Part shown: one piece after another, positions 3,057 to 46,197 of the stretch
Layout of the letters: every line of letters begins with the position of its first letter
How positions within the stretch are numbered: the stretch's first letter is position 1
Origin: Thuidium tamariscinum
Taxonomy: Eukaryota; Streptophyta; Bryopsida; Hypnales; Thuidiaceae
Assembly (NCBI GenBank): GCA_947034885.2
Contig: OX344758.2
Location: 622,501-686,500, forward strand
DNA: 64,000 nucleotides
Direction of reading: 5' to 3'
Made by a program: the position numbers and the translations under genes
Notes under the pieces: model-generated
Databases searched by the model: none
Told to the model about the DNA's origin: nothing
Seen by the model: the letters and a program-made list of their open reading frames with translations, nothing else

Positions 3057-3524
3057 GAGATGGCACTTAGAACTCTAGGTCCATTTTTCACAATTAAATT
3101 GCGAAATCTAGCTAAAAATACAAGAAAAAGACATAAAAAGAATATTGAAAGAGTTTTGGTAGAAGTCTATATCGAAATGGTGAAAAATCAGCTTAGAAGG
3201 TGGAAAATTCCTAATTCTAGGAATTTCTATCATTCTAAGTCTCAGAAGTAAGTTTGTGTGAAGATTTAGTAATTCCGAGAGAAATAAGAAAATGAGAGTT
3301 AGTCAGTCCTAGTGTCTATCTGTGCAAAGTCAACCTTTTAAGGATGCACATCATATACTGACTAAGCCAAAAGAGTCTACTACGAACCTAGAAGATTTAC
3401 CAAGGCCTAAATTCGATTTTGGGATAAATTGAATTTAGAAGTAAAACAATTACAAATGACTTGGAGAATTGAAATTTCACGAGATGAAAGATGGAGGAAT
3501 TGAAGATTGAAGACTATAGAAAGG
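3057..3524. other. Unclassified AT-rich spacer before LTR-A copy 1
   Basis: AT-rich DNA between the MULE fossil and the long terminal repeat. It ends in a purine-rich stretch (about 3480-3524), which would fit a polypurine tract if the following repeat is a 3' LTR. No gene was recognised. Confidence 0.25.
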
Positions 3525-4678
3525 TGTTCTTAGGGTAGGAGCATGCCAGGAACGAATAAAAATTAAACAATTGTCCAAGATTCCCGAGTATCGGGAATTA
3601 AATTGTCCAATCAGGCAAAGTAATTTCAAATTACTAAAAATAGACTAGTGCAAGGTCGCAAGGAACCTACACTAAGAATCTAAGAGTGCCCTAGATGTTA
3701 CCTAAATTATTTCAGATTTTTTCGAAATTCCACGTTGACTCCAAGGGAAGTCAATCGCACATAGAAATGTTTGTAAATTCATAAAAATTACGTATGATGC
3801 GGTAAAATCTCACTAAAAATTAGGATAAGATTTTGTGTGTTTAATAAGTGCCCAGTCAAGTTTAAAGACATTCCGACATTCCCAACTACTAGAACCGGCA
3901 TCGACATCGAATTTCAATGGAATTTACAATTTGGCAGTGGGTTGACTGGCGTATCAAGAGCGAATGATGTCCGATTGTCGCAAATGAGGAGTCATCCCTT
4001 GCTCTCACAGACATTCCTAACAACCCTGGCCTAACAGATTCATCAAAATGCGCAAATCCTAAAAGTTAGATTTTTTACTTTTAATTGAAGTTATCGTAAT
4101 TCCAATTTGGGCAAGCAAACGGCCTAGGAGTGAGGGGTAAAGGATCCCTTTAGGCTAATTGGGGTCTTCTGAAGACAATGGCGCAAACGATTTTTCATTT
4201 CAAGTTGTTCCCTAAAAGATAGAGAGGGTCAGCTCTTAGTTTGACTTTTTAATCGTTAATTGCGGTTAATTAAAAGTGATTTTGGAAATATCTCTTGGAA
4301 AATCAAAGATTAGATTTGGTCAAGATCTCTCTCTTGCGTAAAAATCCATCTTTGGGCTAAAGAAAGACAATTTTTAAAATGACTTTTGGTTAATTTGCAA
4401 AATATCTACGTAAATTAGGGTTAATTCCAAAATATCTTAGATTAAGATCTTGGATTTGATTTGGCCAAGATTTCATTAGCTAAATGGGGATATTTCTAGA
4501 AATTTTCACCATTAAACAAGTATTATTTTGAAATTACATTAGGATAGTTTAGGGGTAGAAGTAATAAAGTATTTTCACTAGCAACTTACCGAGGAGGGCC
4601 CGGCCATAGGTATATAAGGGCCCCCCTCGAGGTTGCCAGTACCCTTATTTCTCGCATTGACACTTTGTTCTTTTCAAG
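3525..4678 (+). mobile_element. LTR-A copy 1, left part (Ty3-type LTR fossil)
   Basis: This stretch matches 33898-35050 closely in the same orientation; I counted about 10 differences over a 140-bp sample, so roughly 93% identity there. It starts TGTTC, and a TATATAAG promoter core lies at 4611-4618, followed by a shared GGGCCCCCCTCGAGGTTGC segment. The copy is split by insertion of the large hAT element and resumes at 21424. The sister copy lies beside Ty3-type gag remnants, but its own family is not proved. Likely a fairly young to middle-aged fossil. Confidence 0.6.
4671..4678. repeat. 8-bp target-site duplication, left
   Basis: TTTTCAAG stands directly before the left terminus of the large hAT element and recurs exactly at 21416-21423 after its right terminus. 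Eight base pairs is the duplication length of the hAT superfamily. The second LTR-A copy at about 35040-35075 runs across the equivalent site without the element. Confidence 0.85.
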
Positions 4679-4708
4679 CAGGGTTGTCTATCCTGACGTG
4701 ACGTGGGC
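4679..4708 (+). repeat. hAT left terminal inverted repeat
   Basis: It begins CAGGGTTGTCTATCCTGACG. Compared with the inward reading of the right end it matches at seven of the first eight bases and again in a TGACGTGACG / CGCGTCACGT block. CA at the extreme end is usual for hAT elements. Confidence 0.7.
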
Positions 4709-5250
4709 TTTTCCCGTCGGGATGTCATGACGCGTCAGTCGTGACGCGGCAGGACGCGTCAGAGGCCGTCCCGAATGCTGACGGCGTCATCGACAGCGCG
4801 GATGAAGTCCGTCGACAGCGCGCAAACGGCCTGTCGGCTGCCTCGACGACTGGCCGTCGCGTGGACGGACAGAGCGTCCGCGGCTTTAGGGTTTAGGCGC
4901 GACGGCCAGGCCGTCGCCTCGACAGTTTTCTGTTTAGCGGACGGTCACGGCGTCCAGAGTCCGTCCACGCAGCGGGGACGGCCAGGCCGTCGTCTGGACG
5001 GCCAAAGCGTCCGCGGCTTGTGCACTTCGACGGGACGGCCAGGCCGTCGCCTCGACAGTTTTCTGTTTAGCGGACAGTCACGGCGTCCAGAGTTCGTCCA
5101 CGCTGCGGGGACGGCCAGGCCGTCGTTTGGACAGCAGGACGTCCGCTGGATGGCCAGAGCGTCTGCGGGGACGGCCACGACGTCCCGTCTGCGGTTGTCC
5201 ACAGTGCGCCAACGGACAGGCCGTCGACTGGACGACTGCTGCCAGGCCTT
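4700..5250. repeat. Array A1: left subterminal GACGGCC/GGCCGTC motifs
   Basis: A GC-rich block densely packed with GACGG/CCGTC motifs in both orientations. The 15-bp perfect palindrome GACGGCCAGGCCGTC occurs four times, at 4901, 4977, 5034 and 5110, spaced 76, 57 and 76 bp. This reflects a duplicated unit with a 133-bp period. Subterminal motif clusters in hAT elements are known transposase binding sites (the AAACGG repeats of Ac). Here the array also ends 5 bp before the transposase TATA box. The long open frame that crosses it is a by-product of repeat composition. Confidence 0.75.
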
Positions 5251-5255
5251 CACAG

Positions 5256-5262
5256 TATATAG
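5256..5262 (+). promoter_or_regulatory. TATA box of the hAT transposase gene
   Basis: TATATAG lies directly downstream of array A1. About 190 bp further on is an intron-like 3' end (ACTAAC branch site, pyrimidine-rich tract, GTGCAG ending at 5449), 26 bp before the chosen start codon. This implies a spliced 5' untranslated region. Confidence 0.5.
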
Positions 5263-5475
5263 CACAAGCCATGTATTTGAAGGTCACTTTTCCTTGTTGA
5301 TCTCTACTCTTATGACCTGGTTGGCACACAGCCATTGCACTAGAGTGAAGTCCAAGAAGAGTGTGTGGGAGGAACACTTGCTGTGAAAGCAGTAAAGGTT
5401 ATTTCCACATCACATTCAAACAGAATACTAACCTGTTTTGTTTGTGCAGTTTCAAGTGAAGAACCAGTGGGAGCA

Positions 5476-7908
5476 ATGGGAGGGGGGAGGACACAATGGG
5501 AACCCTGGTACAGGCTACAAGAGGATGGGAAAGTGGAATGCAAGTTATGCAAAACGAAGATTAGTTACCGCAAGGATCGCTTGCTTTTCCACTTGGGTTA
5601 TAGACGAAATGACACCCTCCCCGGAGTGAGAATGTGCAACAAGGCCAGTGCAGCAGTGAAGGCTATGTTTTTCAATTGTGGGGGGAATGTTCCTACGGTC
5701 TCCGAAGACAAAGAGGAACATGATGTGGAAGTGACATCACCGTCATCGAATCCAACGAGGGTGGTACGTGATCAAGAATTACGCAATGCTTCAATCTCAA
5801 TTAGTGGAGGGGGAGGAAATACTTTGGGCCAAAATTCTCAAGTTCGATCATCAGAGGCGCCTGTCCCTTCTTCGACCCATAGTCGACCGCTGAGGCAATT
5901 ATCCGTACAAGAAGGGATGGACACATCCAAAAAGCAAGTACTAGACAAGAAGTGGGCGAAGTTTTTCTATGAAGCAAATATCCCATTCAATGTGGTGAGA
6001 CACCCCGCTTTTGTGGATGCCGTAAAATCAACCTCCGAGTCCAGAGTTCTTTACAAACCTCCACCTTACAATGCCATATGTACGAAGCTCATGACATCAA
6101 CAAAGGAGGAAGTGGCTGCACTGGTAGCGGAGAAGACAAGGGGGCCTATCCACAAGTACGGTGTCACTATATGTTCTGACGGATGGGACAATGTCAGCCA
6201 TCGGCCATTGATCAATGTAATGTTGTCGTGCACGAGTGGAGAAGTATTTTTGGGATCGGTAGACACTACAGGCGAAAGCAAAGACGCTGTTTATGTGGCT
6301 AATCGCATGATCGATTACATTGACGCGGTGGGGGGACAGAATGTGGTGCAAGTTTGTACGGACAATGCGCCAAACATGCGTTTGGCTGGTACTCAAATTA
6401 CTCGCGAATTCCCTCACCTATATTTCCAAGGTTGTTCCGCGCATGCACTTGACCTTCTACTTGAAGATTGGGGCAAGCAACTTTGGGTGGTCAAAATGGT
6501 GAAGAAAGCAAAATCAATTGTGAAATTCATTCGCACGCATCACATGCCACTCGCCATTTTCCGACGACATTCTCCTAACCTCATGTTGAAGAATCCCATT
6601 GAGACACGTTTTGCGACCATGTTCCTCATGATCGAGCGTTTGGCCGAGGTCAAGGAAGCCGTGGAATCTACAGTCCATGATCCGCAGTGGAACGAATATG
6701 TGAGGTCCTCGAATGCTGCAATACACAATAAGGCAGAAAAGGTTCGACGTAGGGTTCGAAAGGACGAGTTCTGGAGGAGGTGTCTCAACTTTGTGCATAT
6801 GGTAGAGCCTGTGTTGGTGGCTCTTCGAGAGTTTGATGGAAAACATCCGGTCATGGGCAAAGCATGGATCGTGATGAAGAAGCTAGAAAAGCATGTTTTG
6901 GCTTTGAGGAATCGACCATTTTCATTGGAGGCAAATTATGCGGACCGTGCTGAATACGCGTTTTACGAACGATGGGATTTGATGAAGACCGATTTGCACT
7001 ACGCAGCTGCCCTGCTCAATCCATTCCTCCTTGATGAAATTATACTAATAGACGATAACGAGGCAAAGGAGGCCATTCTTAGAGTACTACGCAAATTGGC
7101 AGTTGGAGGGTTGGGATATGCAGCCGCTTTGTTTGAGTACCAATCCTTTCGAGACCGCCGAGGCATGTTCGCTGGACTTCCCGATGTGAATACTTTGAAT
7201 TTGGAGCCGCATGAATGGTGGGATCTTCTCGGAGCCGGTGCTCATACGCTTGCACCTATTGCAAGAAGGATCCTCGCACAAGTATGTTCCGCATTATCAT
7301 ACGAACGCAATTGGAGCATGTATTCATTTGTCCACAGTAAGTCTCGCAACAGATTGACATCTGAGCGCGCGGAGGAATTGGTTTACATTTATACCAATTC
7401 GAGGACTCTCAGGGAAAGGGGTGCGGCGGATGCAGTACGATGGTACACTGAGAACATGTTGTCCGAAGATTCCATGACAACCGAATCAGATGGCTTGGAT
7501 CGTGGTTCGGTTATGTCAGACGCTAACAACGATGACTCAGACGACAGTTCCAATGGCGATGATGATCCACCATTTCGGCCTTTGGGTGAAAGGCAAGAAA
7601 GGGGTCCCCTAATTGACGAGTCCGTATTTGACTTTGATGGCGCGGATAATGATGGAAATGACCACGGGGGAGATGAGGATGGAAATGACAACGGGGGAAA
7701 TGATGGTAGTCCGTCATGGATGCCACGTACATCGATTGCGGGGTCAAGTGGTGGAAATCAAAACGAAGGGGTTGAAGCCCCACCTTCGCCGATTATAAGG
7801 CCGATTGAAGAAGAAATGCGTACCCGGAGACATGAACATGTCGTTGTGGTAGAAAGACAAGGCGAAGATGAGGTCGTTGCCACAGATCCCCCATTGGTGT
7901 CGAGATAG
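5476..7908 (+). CDS. hAT transposase (BED finger, DUF659, hAT dimerisation domain)
   Basis: An 810-residue protein. The start is the first ATG after a likely intron acceptor at 5449; the frame is open further upstream, but that part looks like intron. Domains in order: a BED-type zinc finger near residues 10-55 (WYRL, CKLC, later FHLGY and a Cys); a DUF659/RNase-H-like core with SDGW (Asp235), VCTDNAPN (Asp296) and GCSAHALDLLLEDW; a C-terminal hAT dimerisation region containing SYERNWSMYSF (Glu610) and HSKSRNRL. The acidic DDE-type residues expected of hAT enzymes are therefore present. The last 150 residues are Asp/Gly/Asn-rich and probably disordered. The protein should bind element ends and catalyse excision and 8-bp-duplicating insertion. 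A second open frame follows at once (7911-8576). Confidence 0.88.
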   Translation: MGGGRTQWEPWYRLQEDGKVECKLCKTKISYRKDRLLFHLGYRRNDTLPGVRMCNKASAAVKAMFFNCGGNVPTVSEDKEEHDVEVTSPSSNPTRVVRDQELRNASISISGGGGNTLGQNSQVRSSEAPVPSSTHSRPLRQLSVQEGMDTSKKQVLDKKWAKFFYEANIPFNVVRHPAFVDAVKSTSESRVLYKPPPYNAICTKLMTSTKEEVAALVAEKTRGPIHKYGVTICSDGWDNVSHRPLINVMLSCTSGEVFLGSVDTTGESKDAVYVANRMIDYIDAVGGQNVVQVCTDNAPNMRLAGTQITREFPHLYFQGCSAHALDLLLEDWGKQLWVVKMVKKAKSIVKFIRTHHMPLAIFRRHSPNLMLKNPIETRFATMFLMIERLAEVKEAVESTVHDPQWNEYVRSSNAAIHNKAEKVRRRVRKDEFWRRCLNFVHMVEPVLVALREFDGKHPVMGKAWIVMKKLEKHVLALRNRPFSLEANYADRAEYAFYERWDLMKTDLHYAAALLNPFLLDEIILIDDNEAKEAILRVLRKLAVGGLGYAAALFEYQSFRDRRGMFAGLPDVNTLNLEPHEWWDLLGAGAHTLAPIARRILAQVCSALSYERNWSMYSFVHSKSRNRLTSERAEELVYIYTNSRTLRERGAADAVRWYTENMLSEDSMTTESDGLDRGSVMSDANNDDSDDSSNGDDDPPFRPLGERQERGPLIDESVFDFDGADNDGNDHGGDEDGNDNGGNDGSPSWMPRTSIAGSSGGNQNEGVEAPPSPIIRPIEEEMRTRRHEHVVVVERQGEDEVVATDPPLVSR

Positions 7909-7910
7909 AC

Positions 7911-8576
7911 TTTCGCACATTGCTTCGAGATACGATCGGCATGCGACCACAAGCACCTAGCTTGGATGATCCACCCGTCCAAATTTCAGCACGGCCTTCA
8001 TCTTCTAGAGTCCGCCCCAACCAAGAAACTCCATCAGTCGGTACACGATTGGCCGGTCTCTTCCCAACTCTAAATATGACCGAGCGAAGGAATGCACCTC
8101 CATCCTCAGAACAACCCGTTGCACCGCCTACACGCACTACTAATCGACGCCCGCGGCCACGTGAAGAAGGCCCTACCAATGAACGAGTGAGTAGAAGAAC
8201 ACGTAGAAGGCTAAGAAGGGAAGAAGCGACGAGTATACCATTTCTCCGCGAAGGTCTTCTCCCTGGACCAACGGGGCCCAGTGTGGATACCACTGGAGAT
8301 GGAGTAGGAGGGCGAACAATCCGCAGATTGGCTTCTATAGTAGGTGAAGGCTCAGACAGCCCTGACAACTCACCAAGCGAAGTCGGTAGGGCAACGTCCA
8401 ATCATGATGATGAATCCATGGGTCCTAGTATAGGTGAAGATGGTGAAGTTCCGGGAGATAGTGATTATAGAGGGACTCGTAGAGGTCCTCCACCTGCACC
8501 TCAAGACAATCAAGCAACCACGCGAGAGGCTGCTGCAAGGAGCATGGCTCTTAATCGTATACGTGCAAGACGTTGA
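7911..8576 (+). pseudogene. Out-of-frame C-terminal tail of the transposase, or a small separate ORF
   Basis: This frame is open across the transposase stop and runs another 220 codons, from FRTLLRDTIGMRPQ to a stop at 8574. The product is Arg/Pro/Ser-rich (TRTTNRRPRP, RRTRRRLRREE) and then acidic, with no recognised domain. It has no good ATG near its beginning. The simplest reading is that the transposase once continued through here and that an indel near 7870-7905 put the tail out of frame. A separate small protein starting at Met8 of this stretch is the alternative. Confidence 0.4.
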
Positions 8577-8957
8577 GAGCATCTAGGGAAAAAAATGTCT
8601 CCATGTCATCTTATGTAATATTGTGTAAGGCTGAATACCTTGCATGTGAAATTCGGCATTAATTATAAATACTACACATGCTTCCTGTGCTCATGCAGGG
8701 CGCATGGGTAGAAATTTTTTATCTTCACATGTCACAAATTCTACAACGCAACAACGGATCCATTTATGCATATTTGTCCCAAGAAATGGAAATATTTGCT
8801 TTGTCGTTTGCCATGTGTTCTATACTCTTAAATTTGGATTCATTCTTCGAAGCTGGTTACCTACATGCTTGGATATTTTGAGATCATTATGGATTTTGCC
8901 ATGTACAAAAAAACAAATGTAATCTGGAATATGGAGAAAATGATTGAAAGTACTGAA
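8577..8957. other. 3' flank of transposase gene
   Basis: Non-coding stretch between the transposase tail and the TTAA element. The kinase-like gene on the other strand ends beyond that element, so the two genes converge on this region. Confidence 0.3.
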
Positions 8958-8961
8958 TTAA

Positions 8962-9888
8962 CCCCTAAAGGACCAAGAGTCTCCTCGGGGAACTTTAAGA
9001 ATTAGGGCAGGTACTTGTGACTTCAATTTTTAATGAATTTTATTGAAATTTTCACATAAGATAAAAAAACTGATTAGCTCCGTGGAAATATTCATTTTTT
9101 TTCAATTGGTGACCGGGAGCAAAAGTTATGCCATCATAAACATTATTTTTATATTGCCGGGCAGAAAAAAAATCTACAGAAACTTCAAAATTAAAAAAAT
9201 AATTTTTTTTTCTTATAGATTATATTTTTGTCTACAAGTAAAGCTTTGATTCATTCCATTTGGATTAGTAATGTGAAAGTTATGAACAATCTTGTTTTTT
9301 GGGCAATCTAAGCATCTTCTTGAAAAAATAACTTCTAGGATTCATTTGTGAATGCAATTTCCACAATTTAAAAAAAAAAATTGTTGGACAAGGTTGATTT
9401 TGTTTTCTAGAAGACTAGAACAATCTCACCATTGGGATTATTGTGTTTCAATTCCATCTATGAGATATTTGCAATTTAGTTTTTCTTTCAATCTTGGACC
9501 TACATCTACTTGACAATTTTTTAAAGAATGACAAAAAGTCTTTATTTTGTGAATTTTTTTTCCTAAGCTCTTAGCTCAATTTCTCAATAAAAAAATTTTA
9601 ATTCAAGGTCTGTAGTGCAAAAAGATTACATAAATGGAGGACAAAGTCATTTGAAGTTGCAAACTAGTGTTTAAGAAAACTTTGTTTTCCAACTTTGAAT
9701 GCTCATATCTTCCTATCTATACGGTCAAACTTCATGAAATTTTCACCACATCATCTTAGTTAAGTAAAGTTCAAGATCCTATGGTTAGATTCTAAAAATT
9801 TAGTTTTTTTGTTTTTCATGGATGAATGGAACAAAAATGGCAGTTTTGAGTGGTTTTGGGTTGAAAAACGGCCGTGGTCCTTTAGGGG
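8962..9888. mobile_element. TTAA-flanked DNA transposon, non-autonomous (927 bp)
   Basis: Terminal inverted repeats CCCCTAAAGGACCA are exact at both ends, and TTAA stands on each side (8958-8961 and 9889-9892). TTAA duplications with C-run termini are the hallmark of piggyBac-like elements and are shared by Kolobok elements. The interior is AT-rich with no transposase, so it needed help from elsewhere. It sits between the convergent 3' ends of two genes of the large hAT, so it inserted after that unit formed. Confidence 0.75.
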
Positions 9889-10104
9889 TTAACATGGCAT
9901 TCAGTCCAAAATTTACGAAGGGACAGAACTACTCACAAATCCACTCACCGGAATCATACTCTAATGGAACAAAAAGATTTACATATATTTATTTCAAAAA
10001 GGAGTTAGTACAAAATTCAGTGAGGCAAAGTTCGTGGACTATACTGTGGTAAAAGCAAGTACTAAGGTACGTCTACGATTACATTGCCACTAAAATACTA
10101 TTCT

Positions 10105-11766
10105 CTAATCTTCATTCCTTGCTTGTTCTTGTAGAAGTGCTTGCTCCTTGCGGGCCTCGCGGTAGCAATCCACGGGTGGAGTCCAAAATAAGGGGGCACC
10201 ACTAATTCGTCCCACGGCGTACGTTACCATGCGTCGTTGTAGTGGGTCCTCTTTGCACAATTCGCCCAATGTGGCTTGAAATGTACCAAACGCTGTATGG
10301 TCGGGAAGCATTTCCGTATTTTCGCGGTCTTTCTTCCATATCTTCTCCGCAAGCTTCCCAACAGCATATCCGTCTGTATGTATACTAACACACGGTGCCC
10401 CATCTGCACGAGTGGGGGATACCGAAGTGCCCGCCTCTCCAGGAACATACATCAATTCAGGGGCCACCCACCAACGTTTCTGACGTGTAGCCCGCATTTG
10501 GCTTCCACATTGAAACTGGTACAAAGAATGGGTTTCTTCATTGATACGACTAGCCATTCCCCAATCACATAGCCCAATCCACACTGTTCGCCCATCATCA
10601 TTCGGAAAATGCAACATGATGTTTTCTGGCGTGATGTCGTTGTGGAGCACCGAAGATTGTTGCACCGCATCCACGATGCAAATTAACGCCCATGCAAGCT
10701 CGGTGCGGTTTCTATGATAAGCCAAGAGTCTTTTGGCTTCTTGCATCATCTGTGGAGTTGCATGGTAGGCAAGCTCCCCAATCTCAGCATAATCTCGGTT
10801 TTTCTGGTCCAATGCGAACATGGCTCCCAATGTTCCTCCATTCCACCATTGAGAATAACACTCCATGGTCATGTCATTTATAGCAAAAAAATTTATGACC
10901 CCTGGATGATTACATGGACAAACCAAAGCCTCGATGGACAACTTCTCCCGCGACTTCTTCAATTGATCCACATATAGGGCTGTCTTGCCCGCCAATTCCA
11001 TCATGGGGGGAATGTGCCTTGAATTTTGGAGGCTCACTTTACGCACCCTCCCGTGCCCCCCTTGTTTGTTGTGGCCTGACAATGGAACCACCACCACTCC
11101 TCGTTCAAGAAATACCACTCCTCCCGCACCCGCTTGGCCTAGGGACAAGCTTTGGCTCTGCTGAAACCATGGGGCAGAGCGGATATTGCTGGAAGACAAC
11201 GCTCGCATTGCGTCATGCCACCAATACACCTTTTTGTGCAACAAATGCAATGCTTGTTGCTTTGGCGCTACATCTCGTTTGAAGCCCTTTACCGATGCGG
11301 CGACTTGGGCGATGTTGAAAACACAAGTTTGCACTTGTTCGTCAAGCCAACGACGGAAGTGTTCCTTTGTGCGATCTTCAAGCCACTCATCCTCGCCCAT
11401 TGTTGTCTAAAACATGTGGGTGAATTTTTTTTTAATTGTCTCCACCCCTTGCAATCCACGCGAGACGTAGGTCGTATTCAATTGAGCAATCGTATATTGC
11501 TCCAAAAAATCCAATGCCACTTCCTGCACTTTCCTGGTCGCAGCCTTCCTTGGCCAGTCGTCTGTATTCGTAGCCTTGTGCCTCCGCCTGCTCTTTTTTT
11601 TCTTGGCCCCCGAAGATTCTCCTCCAGCCGCACCACCGACCCCTTCTCCGGCCAATACTGCCTCTGATACGCAGTCAATGGATTCTGGAGACTGCTCACC
11701 AACAGGATCTCCGATGCCTGAAAACCACTCATCAACCTTGCGCTTCGACGCACCTCGCCCGTCCAT
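10105..11766 (-). pseudogene. Protein-kinase-like cargo gene with one in-frame stop
   Basis: One minus-strand frame of 554 codons from ATG at 11766, interrupted by a single TAG at 11409-11407, two codons before an internal ATG (11400) that opens the last 431 residues. Numbered from 11400, kinase features are a Gly-rich loop GGHGRVRK (114-121), a possible alpha-C Glu157, the catalytic loop VLHNDITPENIM (His253, Asp255, Asn260), the metal-binding motif as DWG (279-281), APE (313-315) and an HTDGYAVG subdomain (341-348). HND for HRD and DWG for DFG are unusual but keep the key acidic residues, so activity is possible; the ATP-anchoring lysine is unclear. The N-terminal 119 residues are basic (KKKKSRRRHK), a possible nuclear signal. 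If the stop is real, the second ATG could still give a kinase domain. No intron seen. Confidence 0.7.
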
Positions 11767-11960
11767 TCTGAAAAAAAATATGCGATGGTAAAACCAAGGA
11801 ATTAGGGTTCAGTACTCACAAATGTGAAAACTATCCCCCCTTCCTCAGCCGAGCCTCCTCGCAAGCACCCGCGCTCCCAAGCAAGGACTGCAACCAATCC
11901 AAGGCAAGAGAGCACCGTCAGAGCAGGAGAGACTCGTGCAGAGTGGGGGACCTGGCCCAC

Positions 11961-11968
11961 CTTATATA
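11961..11968 (-). promoter_or_regulatory. TATA box of the kinase-like gene
   Basis: TATATAAG on the minus strand, about 195 bp upstream of the first ATG (11766) and 10 bp inside the edge of array A2. It mirrors the arrangement at the transposase promoter. Confidence 0.55.
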
Positions 11969-11978
11969 GTCGTTGGCG

Positions 11979-12418
11979 AGCCGTCGCATGGACGGCCGAT
12001 CCGTCCAAGGAACTCGAAAGCCGTCGAGGGGTGTCGGGAACTCCGAGACCGTCGAGGGGACGCGTTGAAGCCGTCGAGGGGAATGTCGAGGACAATGAGG
12101 CCGTCGACGGGACGCACCCATCCGTCCCGGGAATTTCGAAGCCGTCGTGGGGACCGTCGAGGAACTGCGAGACCGTCGAGGGGACGCGCTTGCCGTCCTC
12201 AGAATTCGGAAGCCGTCGAGGGGAATGTCGAGGACGATGAGGCCGTCGACGGGACGCACCCATCCGTCCCGGGAATTTCGAAGCCGTCCAGGAAACCGTC
12301 GAGGAACTGCGAGACCGTCGACAGGACGCACAAGCTGTCCTGGGAATTCGGGGGTCCGTCGTGGAACGAGGCCGTCCACGCGACCCCACAGGGCGTCCCG
12401 GGAATTCTGAACCATTAA
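11979..12418. repeat. Array A2: CCGTC/GACGG motifs upstream of the kinase-like gene
   Basis: Dense CCGTCGAGGGG / GACGGGACGC motifs. A unit of about 142 bp is tandemly duplicated: CCGTCGAGGGGAATGTCGAG begins at 12071 and again near 12213. This is internal to the hAT and not near a terminus, so it is not simply end DNA. It abuts the TATA box of the divergently transcribed kinase-like gene. Confidence 0.7.
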
Positions 12419-13861
12419 GGGGATCGTCGGGGAAGCACAGGGTGGTGAAGATGCCAGCGAAGACTTAATGGCAAGCCTCGTGCAACTGAAATTCCTCTAC
12501 AAGGTAATAAGGTAACAGGCCAGAAACCGCCCATCTAAGGGCTGACACTGAATTTTGAGAAGGTCAAAAACCCAGCCTAAAGCCCTTGCCCAACCGAAGG
12601 TTTTAGGATTTAGGGTTTAGGGTTTAGGGTTTAGGGTTTAAGTTCCTTTTTACTTTTGCGTAAATGAGGGTAAAATGTCTAGTTTAGTAATTTAATAACT
12701 TAAGAAGTGCATTATAATTTGTATTCGGTAATTGAGCTTTATTTTCCTAGCATCAATCTAATTTTGCAAATTTTGAAGTAAATAAAAGAAATAACATGAA
12801 ATGATTAAACTTATTGGTTCTAGTCTAAACACATACCTCTTCGGTTGATGCGTATCCGTTCTCAGTTGTGTCGTCAAAAAGCTCTACTTCCTCCCTTTCC
12901 ATCTAATTTCATTCTCCCCCGTAAATTTAGGAAATAGGAGCTAATTTTAATAATTTAATCCGGCTTAATTAGCATTTGCTATTTGATGGTCACACTATAA
13001 CTCCTTGAGGAACTTAAATCATTTCCGTACAATGACTTTGCCTAAATCTAATTCAAGCGTACATACATCTATTTTACAAAATGGGGTCATATAAAATGCC
13101 TAATTGAATTCTTCAACCCAATTATATTGTTGTAACTTACTAGGAATCTAGGATGTTTTTTGGTATGAAAGATGTGCATATGGATGTTTCCTACATATCT
13201 CCTCTTTGCAAATTAATGCTAATTCATTACCAATGTTTTATAATCAATTATCATGCTAAACCATGAGTTTTGAATGAAACAATTCACCAAATACTGAATT
13301 TGACTTATGTGAAATCCACATTTGGTATGCTTGATTATATTATGCAAAATTTGTTTCAATGGCAGAATTGGATGATCCTAAACTTGTTGGTGGGTAGTGT
13401 GTAATGTACACGGCTAAAATTTTACATTGCCTTCCAGTGCTTCATCTCATATCGAGAATGGCTGAAGTGATGGACCCTAAATTTTAGAAGTTGCCCTACG
13501 GATATGTAGGGATTTAAACTTCTCAATTTTAAATTCGGGAGCCATCCGACTAGGCATGTATTTTTTAGGAAATTAGATTAGTACTACATGTACATATTAG
13601 TATATTACTATATTGCATAATATTCTGGTCATGTAGTCATGTACTCTACTTATGAGTTATGAAACTATGAGTTATGAAAGTATAAGTGAATGGCGAGCAC
13701 TAATTAGGAGTTTAGGACGGGGGCACTGGCAAGCAAGACTCCGTTAGTGGGCACCAACCAATTTTCAGAATTCAGACTCTTCTGCGGAACCCTAAACCGC
13801 TCTAATCCTCTCTTTGCCGAAGTGTATGATAAACCCTAGAAGAAAGAGTTAGAATTCCGCA
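12419..13861. other. AT-rich spacer with an interstitial telomere-type run
   Basis: No coding signal. Four perfect TTTAGGG copies lie at 12609-12636 plus a partial copy, the plant telomere repeat. The rest is AT-rich single-copy-looking DNA. Confidence 0.5.
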
Positions 13862-14232
13862 AGTGTGTTAATGGTTTGAACCAAAAAAACACGTCAAAGG
13901 GTTAAAAAAGTTACCCCAAAAAAATATAGAAAGGGTTTGGAAAGAAATTGTCGAGCCCTGTTCGAATAAAAAAAATGTGGAAATGGGTTGGAAAAAAATG
14001 TGTTAATGGTTCAATTAAAAAAAATAGGGAAAAGGTTTGAATCCCCAAAATGGAAGTGGTGTGAATAAAGCAAAACGTTAATGGTTTCGGGTATTGGGCA
14101 AAAATATATAGAAGGGATTTGGACCAAAAAATGGGTTAATGGATCGACTAAAAAAATATGGAAATGATTCGGTTTGGAAAAAAATGTGGAAATGGTTTGA
14201 ATAAAAAAAATGGGAATGGTTTGAATAACAGA
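13862..14232 (+). repeat. A-rich minisatellite, AAATGGTTTGAAT type
   Basis: Degenerate tandem units of GGTTTGAA followed by an A-run and TGGGAATGGTT-like sequence. It is the same repeat family as 19559-20812 but in the opposite orientation, and related to 39840-40005. Confidence 0.6.
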
Positions 14233-15840
14233 CTCGGGGGTTCACCCCCTTTATCTTTTGGTAACCACGTGCGATAATGGGGTATTTAATGGGGGGGTAT
14301 TTATGTCCTTCTCATGTTTTTTTCCCTCCCTATTAGTAGAAATAAAGCTACCGGAGTATATTTTAGAGTACCCTATTTTCTTTTGTAAATTCTTTGAAGG
14401 ACTATTTTTGAACACCCTATTTTTTTTCTACATTTCATAATTACAAAATATTGAGAAGATCAAAAACATTGTATACAAGGAAACATGTGAGCTTCAAGGA
14501 TTTTGATGAACTAAGAACATGGTGAAACGCACAGCATATGCTATCTATATGCCACTAAAGAGTTTGAAAATCAAAAATCAAAGCTACAACTATTTATATT
14601 TCACCATTTATAAGAAAACAAAGCACACAATAGAGAAATTAAACTATAGTATACAATCCTAATTAATGCAATATTTAAAACCAATTTAAAGGCACAAGAG
14701 CATATTCACATTCATTTATATAATAAGAAAACTTAGGGAATTTAATAAGCCGATTGTGTTTAAAAACACAAGTATCAGTAAGTCTGCAAATCCATTCTAA
14801 CATCTAAAATGAAGAAGTTCAAGGACCTCTTGCTCTCAAATCAACTATTATGGTAGGAAGCTCACACAGAGGTTCATAAACTATGCAGGCTTTTTTATCT
14901 GCCTAATAGGACTATAGGAGGGTCTGAAATCTGAATTGGAAAGCTCATTGTGAGGAAACTAATTGTGGATTATATTGAAGCATGCTAAGATTTGATTTTT
15001 ACTATATGAATGGATGGTTTTAGAGTTACAATGGATTCAATCGTAACTAAGTGTACTTATAGGTGTCTACTAATTTTATTCAAAATAAAAAATGGTTGTT
15101 AAACTACCTTCTTTCAAATGTGAAATTGTTTTGAAATAATGATTAATTGAAGAATTCATTTCAGTTTTTGAAAGGGACACATTTAGAAACCATTTCAAAC
15201 CATTTTTTACATGTTGCATTACTAGTTTATTCACCAAACCAGATTCTTTTAGAAACTGTGTATGTATAGATTTTCAAGGCTTACTGATCACAAATAGGGT
15301 CCTATGACAAATTGGGTTTGAAAATTAATAATTAATTCAATTTTTCTTCCAAAAAATATGAAACAACTTGTATTAGATTCCTCATCTATTTTTCCTTGAC
15401 TGAAAAATAAACTAAAAATATTTTCATCTAAAGACATACACGAAAAAGGCAAATCAACTCTTAATTTAAATAAGTGCAATCTTTGCCTCCTACCATGCAT
15501 ACATGGCTAACACACTTGTCACAATCATGAATCCCAAAAAAATTTAAAAAGAAATACAAGATCTGAATGAGTCACACACTTGTCACAACCATGAATGAAT
15601 CCCAAAATTTTTTAAAAAGAAATGCAAGCTATGAATGTTAACTCACTGAGCTCCAATTAACTTACAGTATACAGGTACTGCATTGGCAATCTTCACCAGT
15701 TCACCCACATTAAAATTCTGCTGTCTTACAGCTTATTGCATCTCAACTGCCTAAATGAATACCAATTGCGTAATTGGATCCTGGCTGTCTAATTGGATTC
15801 CACCTGCCTAATTGAAATTCAGTATATATTGGGCCCACCT
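14233..15840. other. AT-rich spacer
   Basis: No gene, RNA or transposon ends recognised. It lies between the A-rich minisatellite and array A3 inside the large hAT. Confidence 0.35.
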
Positions 15841-16535
15841 ATTGGGCCCGTCCAGGACCTGGGCAGGCCGTCACGGGGACGGAGGGCATCCCTAAAACTG
15901 TCCAGGAAGACGGGCCCGTCGAGGACGGCCAGGGAGGACTGACCCCTCTATTGCCCCTTTTTTACCCTTGCAGAAAACCCTGGAATTTCTTTTATTTTTC
16001 ACACAAATTCTTTTTTGCAAATTCTAAATTCTTATTTGGAATCAGAGACCTCGATTTAGCTAGGGGACGTGTTGTAATCTAAAATTTAATCGGCACAAAT
16101 TAGGGGGGAATTTTTTACATTTACCCTCCGGAGGGGCAATAGAGGGGTCAGTCCTCCCTGGCCGTCGAGGACCTGGGCAGGCCGTCACGGGGACGGAGGG
16201 CGTCCAGAAAACCGTCCAGCAACACGGGCCCGTCCAGGACCTGGGCAGGCCGTCCGCAACGAATTTGGCTGCGGGCCGGAGCGTCGACCTGTCCGGGCAG
16301 GCTGTCCACAGCGGAACAGTGGCCGTCCAAGACCACGGGCAGGCCGTCACGAAGAGCCATTTTGGGCCATCGAATTTGCAATTCGGCGGAGTAATTATGG
16401 ATTTTCGAACTCATGAGTGTTTTCGAACTCGTTGACGGCGCCGGACCTGTGGACGGCCTCTGTGACGTCATCCCGAAGTTGTCGACGGCCTCCCGAACCT
16501 CCGTCGACGCTCCCTGGACGCCCCAGCCGTCGATG
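15841..16535. repeat. Array A3: CCGTC motifs with a 34-bp inverted repeat, upstream of the RING gene
   Basis: Two blocks of CCGTCCAGGACCTGGGC / GGCCGTCACGGGGACGG motifs. A perfect 34-bp inverted repeat has arms at 15924-15957 and 16133-16166 with a 175-bp AT-rich centre, so part of the array is an inverted duplication. The array ends about 85 bp before the RING-gene TATA box. It is internal to the hAT, as A2 is. Confidence 0.7.
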
Positions 16536-16621
16536 GCCGTCCGCATCAACGGCTCCAGGTGGTGCATGGCGATGTGATTAGACACAAATTAACACTCCTA
16601 ACGAGGCTTGGTAATGGGGAG

Positions 16622-16628
16622 TATAAAT
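16622..16628 (+). promoter_or_regulatory. TATA box of the coiled-coil/RING gene
   Basis: TATAAAT follows array A3. A CT-rich leader and an intron-like acceptor (GTGTGCAG ending at 16823) precede the ATG at 16829, the same 5' leader plan as the transposase gene. Confidence 0.5.
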
Positions 16629-16828
16629 CCCAAATTCAGCCACAATTAACCTTGCTTTCTCTCTTGAGTTGCTCTGTCCTAGCTTGAAAAAAGCTTTGCA
16701 TTGCAATTCGGGAGGAAGTCAAGCATTTGGCTATTGCTTTGCCACATTCCAGTTGCCCTCACGCAACAGGAGGCAGAGCATAGTCATCTGTACATACATA
16801 CCGTGTTGTGGCATTGTGTGCAGGTACT

Positions 16829-19192
16829 ATGGCCTTAAACCCTAGAGAGATGGTACTACATGTAGAGAACCCCCCCATGGCAGAGAACTAGGAGGTGGTA
16901 ATTGCTGGAAATCACCCCCTAGTGGTAGAAAACCAGGAGATGGTAACCCATGAAGGTGAACCCCCACACAGGAGGCGTCGTGGGAACAGGAGCACTGTAG
17001 ACTCGGCGACTTTTAACACTAGAGAAGTTTTGGCCGGGCACGGGTGGGAACAGGCGCTTGAGCCATGGACCCGCACCACATGTCAGAGATACGTGGACTG
17101 GGCCCACATCAACCGCCATTTTCCACGGGAGAGAAATAAGACGCAAGTGCGATCTGGCGTTGCATTGATCAAGTATTGCGTACACCCAACGTTCAAGAAG
17201 CGGTTGACCGAGGTGGCATTGGCACTTTGGGGGACCCTCTCGAAGAAGGATGGGACCCTCGCATTGTGTCAAATGGTGTATGCGGAGGTTTTTTTGGGCA
17301 AGGACGTGGATTGGAACACGTATCCGGCAAAACAACGGGGCGGCCGTTTCCCTGCTAAAAGCCGTAGAATTCCACCAAATCCTAAAGTGCAATTGGAGGG
17401 CGAAGGAGTGGCTGGGGCACAAGGGGACGAAGCAGCGGCCGCGGACCCCATGGAGGTCGACAATGCACCTCAAGGCGCCAACGAACAAAATCCGGTGGCT
17501 CCCGAATTGGAGGCGCCCATTGCCGGTCCAAGCGAGCCCATGCCACTCGCCATTCACCCAATTCCCCCGTCCATGACAATTAATGAAGTATTTGGAGCAA
17601 ATGGGGAATTAGAGGCATTACGTGCATTGGTGATTAAGCTGCGTGAGGATGGTGCAGAAGCTGAGCGAAGGCACGAGATGGAGGTACAAGCCCACAACGC
17701 ACGAGTGAAGGCTTTGGAGGAAACGAATGCTAAGTTACTAGCAAGTAACATTGACTTGCTTGAACGTGAACGTCGCCAAAGCACGGATGGCACTCCACCA
17801 TTGGATGAGGTCGTGGAGCGGGCCACATATGGTCTAATTGAGCCAGCTGACCCGTTGACGGTGCGTCGGGTGCGGCCTCGTGGTATATTCCCAACACCAC
17901 ATTTTCGTGGTGAGAGTTCAAATGCGGCAACCCAATCAACAGATGCATTGGGCCAAGAGTTCATAAGCGTTGAGCGCGTGGCATACGATGCCCTTGTGGC
18001 ACGAGCGGAGCGTGCAGAGGGCGAGTGCAATGAGGCCAAGGCCAACATGGAGACTGTATTAGCGGCTTTGGAGGGACTACAGGACGAGTTGGCATTTGTA
18101 AATGCCATGAAGGATAGATTGTTGCAACAAACGTCAACTACGAGGGAGCAAAAGTTGCTTGCCATGAGCAACATGAGATTGGCATGCACTTTGGCTATGA
18201 ACGAGGTCGCACAACTGCAGCGTGAAGTCAGGAGAATAGCTGCACAATTTAGAGATGGTAGCCAACGTTATTTTGGCTTGACATCGTGGGCCCAACTGGA
18301 GGATATGTTTCCAGTTACATTGCCCCAAAATCGTGATAATGCAAGCATTGATTGGGACGGGCATCCGCATCTAGACTTCTAATTCAACACCGCGAGATAT
18401 CGATACGGGCCCGTGGATAGAGAAGGCAATGCCCCCTTACTGTGGCCCATAGTTCCCGAGTTTGTGAAGGATGGAACGACGTGCACGATTTGCATGGAAC
18501 CGTTTGGACCCGAGGGTGGATTTTGCCTTGGAACGTGTGGACATATGTACCACCCCGGATGTCTCATTCCGCACATGGTCACAAGAAAGCGGTGCGCACA
18601 ATGCAAGGCTCCTTTGCACCGGCGGTTGTACGTCCAATTTGGGTTGGAGGATTACATGCCCCCACACTTCGAGTTGAACGAAGAGAACTTGCCTAGCGAT
18701 GAGAATAGAGGGAGTTGGGGTAATGACATGATATGGATGTGGAAGTGGGGCCATGACAGTAGACACCTCGCCGTGCGCAGCGTGCAAGACATTCCGTGGA
18801 ACGATGATGCGGAGATTACGGAGGTGTGCAAGAAGCTGATTAGTGCGGGCGATCCAGGGCGGCGAGTATTTTTTGGCCAACTTGCTGGTGGCCATTGGGA
18901 CTTGGACCGACAGGAGTTCGTGCGCCGACCACATCTAGAGAATGTGGTTTTTGACTCCAATGGAAATCCTATCGGAATACTCCAAGACATGGATCATGAG
19001 GCACAAATGAGGTTCATCGAAGACAGTACGTTCAATGAGGTGCAAATGTTGTCAACCATTTCTTCCTACTTGCACGATCGATATGATCGGACCGTAGTGG
19101 CTACGTTGAACAGTTTGCAATCTAGAGAAGGATTGCAAGATTTTTTGAGAAATAGTATAGGCAGAGGCATTGTAGAACCAGAACAAGGTTGA
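16829..19192 (+). pseudogene. Coiled-coil protein with C-terminal RING-H2 finger, cargo gene with two in-frame stops
   Basis: One frame runs from ATG 16829 to TGA 19192, interrupted by TAG at 16889 and TAA at 18380. ATG 16895 gives a 495-residue piece; the last part (18383-19192) stays open. The N-terminal region has an unrecognised Trp-rich domain (EPWTRTTCQRYVDWAHIN to KDVDWNTY). Long coiled coils follow near residues 235-290 and 355-460 of the 495-residue piece. After the second stop comes a canonical RING-H2: CTICMEPF, then TCGHMYHPGC, then RCAQC (about 18482-18610). RING-H2 proteins are usually E3 ubiquitin ligases, so the intact protein was probably a self-associating E3. The first stop replaces a glutamine codon judging by the nearby repeat VENQEMV versus AEN-stop-EVV. 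Both stops fit CAG/CAA to TAG/TAA. The tail after the RING is unrecognised. Confidence 0.7.
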
Positions 19193-19558
19193 ATACCTTC
19201 TGGTGATGAGTTAGGCCATTAGACGGATGTATAGTATATTAGTATTGTAAATAGTATTTGGCTATGACGACCATTTACGAGCGTTTGTTGCTCATGTTGC
19301 AAAAGTACATTTTTTGGGCAATGAAGCATTTTCATTTTTCTCGTACAACTGTATTGTCTATTAAACACTTAAACTGAAAACTTAACCATGAACAAATGAA
19401 AAGCATACTCAATACGTTTGCTTGAAATGTATGTGCAACAAGTTCATTTAAATCCAATGCCATACTTTCACTTAAAGTAGATTTTGTAAGTTCACTTTTA
19501 AAAATTGCCAAAATTCTATTTTTTACATATGCCACAAGTATATATGCTTTTGTTTTTG
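19193..19558. other. 3' flank of the RING gene
   Basis: AT-rich, no coding signal; leads into the T-rich minisatellite. Confidence 0.3.
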
Positions 19559-20812
19559 ATTCCCACCATTTCGAATTTTTTTAATCAAACCATTAACCCA
19601 AGTTTTTCCCACCGCATTTTTCCACATTTTTTTTTCCACATGTCAAACCATAACCATTTTTTTACCCTAACCCATTTCCATTTGTTAGATTCAAACCCTT
19701 TCCATTATTTTAGATTGAACCCATTTCCATATTTTTATTAGTCGAACCATGAACACATTTTTTTAAACCATTTCTATATTTTTTTGTCGTCCACATTTCA
19801 AACCATCAATGTTCTTTTTTATTCAAAGCATTCCCATTTTATTGATTCAAACTATTTCCAATTTGAGCCTTAACCATTAAGGCATTAACATTTTTTTTCC
19901 AAACCATTTCTAAATGTTTTTTATTCAACATTTCAAACCATGGAAGTTTTTTTTTTCAAACCATTTCCATATTATTTTTAATCAAACCCTGAACACATTT
20001 TCTTTCCAACTTATTTCCATATTTTTTTTAGTCAAACCATTAACACATTTTTTTTCACGACCCTTTCTATAAGTTTTTTTCCAACCTTTCCAACCATTGC
20101 CTTTTTTTTTATTCAACCCATTTCCATTTTTTTTTTTATTCGAAGCATTTTCATATATTTTTTAGTCGAAACATGAACACATTTTTTTTCCAAACCATTT
20201 CTATATTTTTTTGTATTCAACATTTCAAATTATTAACTTTTTTTTAATTCAAAGCATTTCCTTTTTCTTTTTCTTTGATTCAAACCATTTCCATATTTTT
20301 TTTAGTCGAACCATTAACCCATCTTTTTTCCAAACCATTTCTATATTTTTCTTTCTAACACCCTATACCATTACCGTTTTTCTTTACTCAAAACTTGGCC
20401 ATTTTTTTACCCTAAACCATTTCCATATTTATTCTAGTCAAACAATTAACACATTTTTTTTCCAAACCATTTCTAAATTTGTTTTTCCAACATTTCAACC
20501 CATTTCCATATTTCTTTTAGTCAAACCCTAATCACATTTTTTTCCCAACCCATTTCCAAATTTTTTTGGTCGAGCCATTAACACATTTTTTTCCAAACCC
20601 TTTCTATATTTTTTTTTCATTCAACATTTCAAACCATTAACGTTTTTTTTAATTCAAACCATTTCCATAATTTTCTTATTCGAACAATTAACACATTTTT
20701 TTTCAAAACCAGTTTTACATTTTTTTTTATTCACAATTCCAAACCATTAACATTATTTTCATTCAAACCATTTCCTTTTTTTTGATTCATACCACCAAAA
20801 CCTTTTTTTTAA
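19559..20812 (-). repeat. T-rich minisatellite, ATTCAAACCATTTCC type (1.25 kb)
   Basis: Dozens of degenerate units built from TCAAACCATTTCCAT, T-runs and GTCGAACCATTAACACA. It is the inverse of the array at 13862-14232. Small open frames inside it are repeat by-products. Confidence 0.7.
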
Positions 20813-20973
20813 ATACAGAATATATATTATATTTAGACTATGGAAGGCCTAAAATACAAAACCATGGGAAATTATTTTTTGAGAGATGGTTAAACCTCAT
20901 AGACTAATGAGAAAATTTTGATTGCGAATATGAACTCAGACTTTTAAGTCTTACAAATAAAGAGTTCCAGTCC

Positions 20974-21400
20974 ACGGAGCCCAGGCCGTCCATCTTGACC
21001 GTCGACGGCACGGCCAGGCCGTCCATCGAACCCAGGCCGTCCTTCCCAAGCATAGACTGTACCCAGACCGTCGATCTGGAGGCATCCGTCCAGGCCGTCC
21101 ACTGGACGTCCTGTCCATCGGGGCCGTCTATACCCCGCGAGCGGGGCCGTCCCCTAAAACCGTCCACCGGATCCGGACCGTCCGCAGAACCCAGAGTGTC
21201 CATCCAAGCCGTCCAGTCAGCCAGGACCGTCCATCGGAACTATCCACCGAGCACGTCCTTCCAGGCCGTCCACGGAGGTCGTCCGTGAGGGCGTCCACGA
21301 CCGCTGTCACGATTTTTCATCCTCTGTCGCGGATTCTGTCGTGAATTTCATCCTGACGGACGCTCGGCTCCCCGTCACATCAACGGACGGACGTGACGCG
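20974..21400. repeat. Array A4: right subterminal CCGTCCA motifs
   Basis: Dense CCGTCCATC / GGCCGTCC motifs up to the right terminus of the hAT, the counterpart of array A1. Confidence 0.7.
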
Positions 21401-21415
21401 ACGGAAGCAACCGTG
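21386..21415 (-). repeat. hAT right terminal inverted repeat
   Basis: Read inward from the end it starts CACGGTTGCTTCCGTCGCGT, an imperfect partner of the left end. It is directly followed by TTTTCAAG. Confidence 0.7.
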
Positions 21416-21423
21416 TTTTCAAG
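21416..21423. repeat. 8-bp target-site duplication, right
   Basis: TTTTCAAG, identical to 4671-4678. The bases outside differ on the two sides, so the duplication is exactly 8 bp. Confidence 0.85.
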
Positions 21424-21806
21424 TGCTACCGACGTGGTCGGAGCACCACTTGGACCAAAAGATTTTTGGCCAAGTTTTGTTTAAGTTTTGTTGCTGAAAC
21501 TGTGAAGGCTTAGGGCCCCTTCATTAAGTATCATTTTCAACTTCTGTGTGAGAGGCTAAGCCTCAACTTCTTGCTGAAGACTATTCCGAGGAAATTTCAA
21601 GCATTGAGTGCCAAAGTTCAGTTAAACACTGTCATGTGTACCTCCTTTTGCGAATAAAATTCTTTGAATACTATTGGAGAACCCCCACACGGCGGAGCCA
21701 TAGCTTTCCCAATTAAGTTTAGGAAATACGGTGAACCTCTAACACACCTTAATTACTAAATTCGTAACTGGGACTTGAACAAATTCAAGTACAGGGGTGT
21801 GTCACA
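21424..21806 (+). mobile_element. LTR-A copy 1, right part
   Basis: It continues LTR-A beyond the hAT insertion. GGAGCACCACTTGGACC, TTTCAAGCATTGAG and GTCATGTGTACCTCCTTTTG have close counterparts at 35077-35365. The end is uncertain; TGTCACA at 21800-21806 would suit an LTR terminus. Fossil, non-coding here. Confidence 0.5.
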
Positions 21807-33897: not shown

Positions 33898-35420
33898 TGT
33901 TCCAAGGGTAGGAGCATGCCAGGAGCGAACAAGAATCAAACAATTGTCCAAGATTCCCGAGCATCGGGAATTAAATTGTCCAATTGGGCAAAGTAATTTC
34001 AAATTACTAAAATTAGACTAGTGCAAGGTCGCAAGGAACCTACACTAAGAATCTAAGAGTGCCCTAGATGTTACCCAATTTATTTCGGATTTTTCCGAAA
34101 TTCCACGTTGACTCCATGGGAAGTCAACCGCACATAGAAATGTTTGTAAATTCATAAAAATTACGTATGATGCTATAAAATCTTACTAAAAATTAGGATA
34201 GGTTTTTGTATGCTTAATAAGCGCCCAGTCAAGTTTGAAGACATTCCGACATTCCCAACTACTAGAACCGGCATCGACATCAAATTTCAATGGAATTTAC
34301 AAGTTGGCGGCGGATTGACCGACGTATCAGGAGCGAATGATGTTCGATTGTCGCAAATAAAGAGTCATTCCTTACTCTCACGGACATTCCTAACAACACT
34401 GGCCTAACAGATTCATCAAAATGCGCAAATCCTAAAAGCTAGATTTTTGACTTTTAATTGGAGTTACCGTAATTCCAATTTGGGCAAGCAAACAGCCTAG
34501 GAGTGAGGGGTAAAGGATCCCTTTAGGCTAAATGGGGTCTTCTGAAGACAATGGCACAGACGGTTTTTTGTTTCGAGTTGTTCCCTAAAAGATAGAGAGG
34601 GTCAGCTCTTAGTTTGACTTTTTAATCGTTAATTGCGGTTAATTAAAAGTGATTTTGGAAATATCTCTTGGAAAATCAAAGATTGGATTTGGTCAAGATC
34701 TCTTTCTTGCGTAAAAATCCATCTTTGGGCTAAAGAAAAACAATTTTCAAAATGACTTTTGGTTAATTTGCAAAATATCTACGTAAATTAGGGTTAATTC
34801 CAAAATATTTTGGGTTAAGATCTTGGATTTGATTTGGCCAAGATTTCATTAGCTAAATGGGGATGTTTTTAGAAATTTTCACCATTAAACAAGTATTATT
34901 TTGGAATTACATTAGGATAGTTTAGGGTAGGAAGTAACAAAGTGTTTTCACCGGCAATTACCGAGAGGGGCTCGGCCACGGGTATATAAGGGCCCCCCTC
35001 GAGGTTGCTAGTACCCTTATTTGTTCCTGCACATTGACACTTTGTTATTTCTTTAGTTTGTGCTACCTGCATAGCCGGAGCACTACTTGGACCAAAGATC
35101 TTGGCCAAGTCTTGTTTGTGTTTTTATTTAACATTGAAGGTTTAGGGCCCTTCAATTAATTTGCATTCACACTATTATACTTCGATTAATTCTCATTTTG
35201 AACTATCAGTGATACGTGGAAATTTCAAGCATTGAACACCAAAGTTCGGTTCAAACACTGTCATGTGTACCTCCTTTGGACGTAAAATCTTGAAATACTA
35301 AGACATTTTAAGTATTTAAAGTGAAAGTTAGGTTTAAACATTGTCATGTGTACCTCCTTTTGCGAATAGAATCCTTAAAATACCAACACAGAACCTCGAA
35401 CGGCGAAGCTTTGCACGTTC
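33898..35420 (+). mobile_element. LTR-A copy 2
   Basis: Starts TGTTCC and has TATATAAG at 34983-34990. It matches 3525-4678 and then 21424-21700, so it shows the uninterrupted form of the site where the large hAT inserted. A segment containing GTCATGTGTACCTCCTTT is locally duplicated (about 35261 and 35343). Its right end is uncertain. It lies inside gag remnants of another element, so it is a solo LTR or a truncated element. Confidence 0.6.
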
Positions 35421-45789: not shown

Positions 45790-46197
45790 CTTTAGGAACT
45801 GAGTTGACTACCTTGTCTAGCGACTAGAGTAGGTGCATCTAGAAATATGTGATTTTGGGTGAGTTAAAGGATTTTTGTGTGTGCAATATGCTCTGTTCTT
45901 CCTTTTGGTTATTGGGTCCACTTAAAGTGGAATGATTTGCAATGAATTGTTGTGTATGTGAGAGATATTAAGAATTCAAATGGATGGATGCAAATTTGTG
46001 GATGTTGAAATATGTGAGTACTGGGCATTAGTGGGCTTGCACCCTTTCTTTGTGTATCAGTGTTCTTCTTTCGAAGGGATTTCTATTGAAGACTCTATTG
46101 ATGAATCAGGCTATCTAAGGGCTACAATGGAAGAGGATGCATTGTGCCTAGTACTGCAAGAGAGTCGAGGCATGTTGTAGCGGGTGGTGGCGGTAGT

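Follow-up and report, generated by a model that had tools for sequence, protein, structure and literature searches.

Transposons of the hAT superfamily are usually regarded as small one-gene elements with the terminal consensus CA(G)GG: Ac of maize carries one gene, the Ac/Ds system makes 8-bp duplications, and Hermes is an insect one-gene element, while VANDAL21/Hiun is Mutator-like, unlike hAT. In Thuidium tamariscinum (Bryopsida, Hypnales), a 64,000-nucleotide stretch of contig OX344758.2 (positions 622,501 to 686,500 of the forward strand; hereafter the window) contains a hAT element of about 17 kb with three genes, encoding a transposase, a protein kinase and a RING-H2 protein, which bears out the unusually large and complex hAT proposed in an initial annotation of the stretch; it is almost certainly a cut-and-paste DNA transposon that moves as one unit. 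Among the closest described systems, in the available text on each, the Ac transposase binds subterminal AAACGG repeats (PMC3260210), and large hAT elements with cargo are already known from ToxhAT, a 14-kb hAT of wheat-pathogenic fungi that carries the effector gene ToxA (PMC9594970). The word hAT does not occur in the available text of a review of giant eukaryotic transposons (PMC6431247), and a search of the open-licence literature yielded neither a plant hAT described as carrying kinase and RING genes nor such a module in any hAT.

The copy in the window (4679-21415, + strand, 16,737 bp) is delimited by a paralogous empty site and by comparison with other copies. It is flanked by the exact 8-bp target-site duplication TTTTCAAG at 4671-4678 and 21416-21423, as the initial annotation had reported. 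The left terminal inverted repeat CAGGGTTG (4679-4686, + strand) and the right terminus, read inward as CACGGTTG (21408-21415, - strand), agree at 7/8 bases; the termini described as matching therefore do so except for one mismatch, which is absent from the 10 other copies read whole, where the inward reading is CAGGGTTG. The paralogous empty site named in the initial annotation is borne out in the second copy of a long terminal repeat (LTR) without the insert (33896-35383, + strand): after removal of the insert the two LTRs (approximately 3523-21673 and 33896-35383) align across the junction with 89% identity over 1,423 columns, and with the pieces unjoined the LTR-LTR homology breaks inside the duplication (at 4673 and 21423). 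The empty target does not agree in every base, owing to small LTR indels near the junction and to the greater divergence on its right side, where identity is 74% over 258 columns. The copy was inserted into the LTR and decayed later. The host LTR element (3523-35383) is itself old: the divergence between its LTRs is about 7% in the left part and higher in the right. The four open reading frames (ORFs) scanned between its LTRs outside the hAT element have no Pfam match.

Terminal repeats and duplication were rejected as sole proof of the element, since shuffled sequences yield comparable pairs. In particular, a blind scan of the window gave 218 CA...TG pairs whose 8-bp flanks are identical, and in some of these the termini match as well as or better than the 7/10 of the window pair; 39 of 40 first-order Markov shuffles contained a pair matching 7/10 or better. 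The agreement of features on which the initial annotation relied holds, but its duplication and termini alone lie within chance; because chance pairs are frequent, the element call rests on the independent evidence of the empty site, of the sole pair in the interval and of the other copies. Between 4600 and 21500 no second pair was found with CAG/CAC starts and at least 7/8 terminal and at least 7/8 flank match, so that internal termini with duplications of their own, which would have indicated a nested composite, did not appear. The same termini delimit full-length copies elsewhere, with different 8-bp duplications.

In the genome assembly of the same organism (363.2 Mb, 19 contigs), markers were counted as 30-base patterns with at most 2 mismatches, and reversed-pattern controls were all 0. 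The left end was found 318 times and the right end 301 times, while the gene markers numbered 146 for the transposase, 149 for the kinase and 145 for the RING gene; by arithmetic, about 145 copies of 17 kb correspond to approximately 2.4 Mb, or 0.7% of the assembly, and the family is spread over contigs C1-C11. Searches with the first and last 200 bp listed 40 places each, at 97-100% identity (best 40 of 368 candidates scored) and 91-100% identity (best 40 of 310 candidates scored), respectively, and for 17 of the 40 left-end places the right-end list contains a partner in the same orientation 16.7-20.7 kb away. On contigs C1-C4, 47 of 58 perfect left ends are paired with a perfect right end within 45 kb, against the possibility, raised in the initial annotation, that the two ends always occur apart. 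Of these 47 pairs, 27 measure 16.7-17.3 kb, each enclosing the kinase marker, 13 are short (860-929 bp) and have both ends without this interior, and the remaining 7 range in length from 15.5 to 32.7 kb; the 11 unpaired left ends include C4:19879288, whose right end has a mismatch.

Ten further large copies from the top of the left-end list were read whole (20 kb each), giving 11 with the window copy, and in ten more 60 bases per end were read, for a total of 21 large copies. The ten other whole-read copies measure 16,750-17,217 bp, and all have the perfect CAGGGTTG/CAACCCTG pair. Duplications are exact in seven of the 11 whole-read copies, match at 7 of 8 bases in one and do not match in three; among the end-read copies six are exact (one of them with a changed last base, judged by eye from the sequence), one matches at 7 of 8, two do not match and in one no left terminus was found. 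Overall, 13 of the 21 are exact and two near-exact, and the 13 exact duplications, together with those of 13 short copies described below, are all different, which is the outcome anticipated for a mobile unit by the initial annotation. The 11 copies are 98.4-99.6% identical over their whole length, spacers included; 15,993 gap-free columns contain 613 changes private to one copy and 127 shared changes, with a private change per copy of 0.14-0.71%. Read from this identity and from the private and shared changes, the copies appear to have arisen from a small number of sources in a recent burst. Within the family, the numbers of synonymous and other changes are uninformative.

The three genes of the element are each long and in a single frame. 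The transposase gene (5476-7908, + strand) encodes a DUF659 core and a hAT dimerisation domain; in the window copy a short deletion ends the frame early and leaves the C-terminal part out of frame (7920-8576, + strand), so that of the transposase initially annotated as intact-looking the core is intact and a frame shift affects the C-terminal part. Other copies have a frame that runs to the equivalent of 8576 and encodes 1,044 aa from the first ATG, with Pfam matches to PF04937 (E 8.3e-36) and PF05699 (E 1.2e-9). The catalytic core and the C-terminal region of the protein align collinearly, though weakly, with Hermes (E ~5e-4), and at the aligned catalytic positions D and D are present in 11/11 copies and E in 10/11; these are presumably the D, D and E of Hermes, an assignment taken from the weak alignment. 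The N-terminus gives no Pfam BED match, and a Cys-x2-Cys...His...Cys pattern was noticed there by eye only. The transposase frame is open in 6 of the 11 copies, four of which have the full 1,044-aa ORF.

The protein kinase gene (10105-11766, - strand) has one in-frame stop in the window copy that is not found in the 10 others; elsewhere it encodes 553 aa, with a partial Pfam match (E 8.8e-9) and motifs that we take to be a glycine-loop-like motif, HND, DWG and APE, and it is open in 3 of 11 copies, two with an ATG-started full ORF. The RING-H2 gene (16829-19192, + strand), which is E3 ligase-like and has two in-frame stops here, encodes 787 aa in other copies and is open in seven of the 11. 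Its RING domain lies near the Pfam cut-off of 27.3 bits (26.9 for the full protein, 28.8 for a shorter piece), and the protein matches the RING structures of RNF24, RNF126 and Arkadia. Structure prediction with AlphaFold gave models too poor to be used (mean pLDDT 35 for the kinase and 40 for the RING protein), and IMG/VR scans with the transposase and kinase queries returned no relatives. With its right terminus and all three genes damaged, the window copy looks dead.

On the features tested, namely exact 8-bp target-site duplications (in 13 of the 21 large copies and in all 13 short ones), the short terminal inverted repeats, the catalytic core with D, D and E and the C-terminal dimerisation domain, the element belongs to the hAT superfamily, as an unusual, very large multi-gene form. 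It is not of the VANDAL/VANC type, as the transposase is hAT and no VANC-like family occurs among the Pfam matches.

The 13 short pairs are miniature inverted-repeat transposable elements (MITEs) of 860-929 bp, all with exact 8-bp duplications and mutually 96.2-99.9% identical; they are likely young because they were chosen by perfect ends. In alignments of three of the 13, the left 138 bp and the right ~141 bp are common to the large element at 94-97% identity, and the interiors are distinct. The shared left end corresponds in the window copy to 4679-4816 (+ strand; ~94-96% identical), and the last ~125 bp of the window copy correspond to the 141 bp that the other large copies have in common with the MITEs. 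Since MITEs share only the ends with the large element, the ends alone are probably what the transposase needs in cis. The one MITE displayed in full contains a GCCGTC-rich array and a palindrome; the MITE hairpin pattern, found at 301 places, partly counts both palindrome arms and is no count of MITEs. The pair at 42207-42444 of the window (CACGGTTG...CAACCCTG) was considered as a short copy and rejected, as its flanks mismatch and the inner sequence beside its ends differs by eye.

Four arrays of the hexamer GCCGTC (GACGGC on the other strand) are distributed along the element. The left array (4679-5140, 12 copies) lies upstream of the transposase gene, the second (11960-12420, 11 copies) upstream of the kinase gene and the third (15840-16570, 12 copies) upstream of the RING gene, each at a distance of ~190-350 bp, and the fourth (20960-21415, 9 copies) forms the right end. 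Counted on either strand, 44 hexamers fall in the arrays (2.1 kb) and 2 in the remaining 14.6 kb of the element, while 4 lie in the 47 kb of window sequence outside it and 20 in one MITE interior; the distribution is alike in all 11 whole-read copies, with 2-3 hexamers outside the arrays in each. Because the Ac transposase binds subterminal AAACGG repeats, the arrays are taken as putative transposase-binding sites: by this analogy the transposase would bind those at the ends, assembling the transposition complex, and those before the genes, controlling their expression, a proposal that we hold to be rather probable. Six AGGGTTT (plant telomere-type) repeats are found at 12598-12640, near the array before the kinase gene, and two AT-rich minisatellites, at 13861-14225 and 19603-20783, are inverted with respect to each other; no coding function was seen in the former.

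Diverged relatives were sought in the same genome with DUF659, the best 150 of 547 candidates being scored and three places read; other families are present among the matches listed. At C11:9738222 the transposase (51% identical), the kinase (58%) and the RING gene (38%) share one direction and are arranged as kinase, transposase, RING, an order that differs from that of the window element; this RING gene has an open 780-aa frame whose RING domain scores below the cut-off. At C11:4510662 a transposase (64%) adjoins a kinase (60%), and at C2:155622 there is a transposase of 45% identity over 659 aa. With the RING protein of C11:9738222 as query (best 58 of 1,311 candidates scored), the matches listed comprise the group of the query itself, the window family (~44%) and a second RING group (42-44%), which occupies five places on C11. 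Of these second-group places, three lie ~11 kb from DUF659 matches at C11 positions 9738222, 8353900 and 4510662, and a first-group member adjoins 8353900. Within the stretches read, which stop short of their ends, the C11 relatives are presumed to be single elements. In-frame stops (1 to 5) occur in four of the six aligned relative genes and none in two; therefore these C11 copies are old. Of the old gene-set relatives found, many sit on C11, which at 17.5 Mb is smaller than the other large contigs seen and is perhaps a repeat-retaining chromosome.

Against these relatives, the nonsynonymous and synonymous divergences (dN/dS) are 0.39/2.49 and 0.28/3.03 for the transposase and 0.33/2.35 and 0.32/2.23 for the kinase (ratio ~0.14), that is ~0.09-0.16 across both genes, values which are approximate because dS is saturated; for the RING gene dN is 0.57 and dS is beyond estimate. 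Both C11 relatives retain most of the kinase and transposase motifs. Transposase and kinase are under constraint. The kinase and RING genes seem to be parts that the element has retained, because relatives keep them and dN/dS is low for the transposase and the kinase.

Several observations weigh against the reading preferred here. All three frames are open in none of the 11 whole-read copies, and coding changes among these copies look near-neutral, as expected after a burst, which by itself gives no support. Five of the 21 large copies have unmatched flanks (C4:17856348, C8:13456517, C6:25364005, C4:10604245 and C3:26470720, all with perfect ends), for which recombination between copies or alternative transposition may be the cause, and in one further copy no left terminus was found. 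Among the relatives, no RING gene lies within the 20 kb read at C11:4510662, where a RING relative is situated ~11 kb away on the other side, and neither kinase nor RING was found in 19 kb at C2:155622. The left array, in turn, varies from 329 to 781 bp between copies, as in a plain minisatellite.

That the element is a nested composite, in which several transposons inserted into each other and 4679-21415 just appears single, could be suggested by the four separate GC-rich arrays, which look like internal ends, and by the inverted AT-rich minisatellites on both sides of the RING half. This origin is nevertheless very improbable, given the lack of an internal terminus pair with a duplication under the thresholds described, the same interior in the same order in all ten other whole-read copies and the even gene-marker counts (146:149:145); as a recent event it is refuted, while two elements may have fused in ancient times, ahead of the burst. 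Even less credit is due to a segmental duplication or an assembly artefact, with which the high identity of the copies and the five cases of unmatched flanks would be compatible; this explanation is refuted by the exact 8-bp duplications in differing flanks, and the dispersal of the copies over C1-C11 also speaks against it.

As to the extra genes, DNA transposons commonly capture genes, and the kinase and RING genes could be host sequences captured passively (Pack-type) and amplified with an ordinary hAT, as the one relative in three that lacks both might indicate; this is unlikely, as relatives with 51% and 64% identical transposases still hold the kinase, C11:9738222 keeps an open RING frame and the kinase dN/dS is ~0.14. 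A better chance, though still on the doubtful side, is given to the arrays being CpG-rich minisatellites or promoters without transposase binding, for which their variable length can be cited; one hexamer recurring at both ends, before three genes and in a MITE interior, and nearly absent elsewhere in the window, favours putative binding sites instead. Retention of the two genes having been preferred to passive capture, the kinase and the RING protein might help the element to multiply, with the transposase itself or host factors for silencing or repair as the most likely targets of modification, a role that is put forward tentatively. With the same reserve, the family could represent a long-lived giant multi-gene plant hAT lineage, in which kinase and RING-H2 ligase would form a phosphorylation/ubiquitin module acting against host silencing or steering repair, and all genes and both ends would be under one transposase-bound repeat.

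Elsewhere in the window, a 278-bp element at 54058-54335 with terminal bases matching 10/10 (CAACCCTTTT) and an exact 8-bp duplication TTGCTTAC is possibly another hAT-like MITE. A 1,342-aa single-frame PPR-DYW gene (46105-50130) contains ~303-bp tandem repeats with ~91% DNA identity, blocks that are apparently recently expanded, and an Rfam scan of the window gave no match.

In this plant ~17 kb is mobilised at high copy, with a transposase paired with a kinase and a RING protein in a set shared by a diverged relative. With ~145 large copies, and many MITEs whose ends are the same, the family provides a natural system in which to study the contribution of accessory proteins to a DNA transposon and the ways in which a single repeated motif might be used in transposition as well as in the control of genes. 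In comparison with the known systems, to the extent of the available text on each, the element resembles Ac/Ds in its short terminal inverted repeats, hAT transposase, subterminal hexamer repeats and short non-autonomous partners with the same ends (Ds); it differs in size (~17 kb with three genes, against 4.6 kb for Ac), in the hexamer itself and, unlike Ac, in the arrays before two extra genes (PMC3260210). With Hermes (PDB 2bw3, 6dww, 8edg) it shares the weak collinear match of core and C-terminal region. ToxhAT is likewise a large hAT with cargo (PMC9594970), likened here by description and not by homology; in contrast to that fungal element, the present one is a plant family of ~145 large copies whose extra genes are also found in a diverged relative. 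VANDAL21/Hiun of Arabidopsis, with VANC, is a multi-gene plant DNA transposon whose own protein acts via tandem short-motif repeats (PMC5735166); its proteins are other than those of the element described here, so that the analogy is functional only, and it is in this sense that the arrays before the accessory genes recall the VANC-bound tandem motifs of VANDAL elements.

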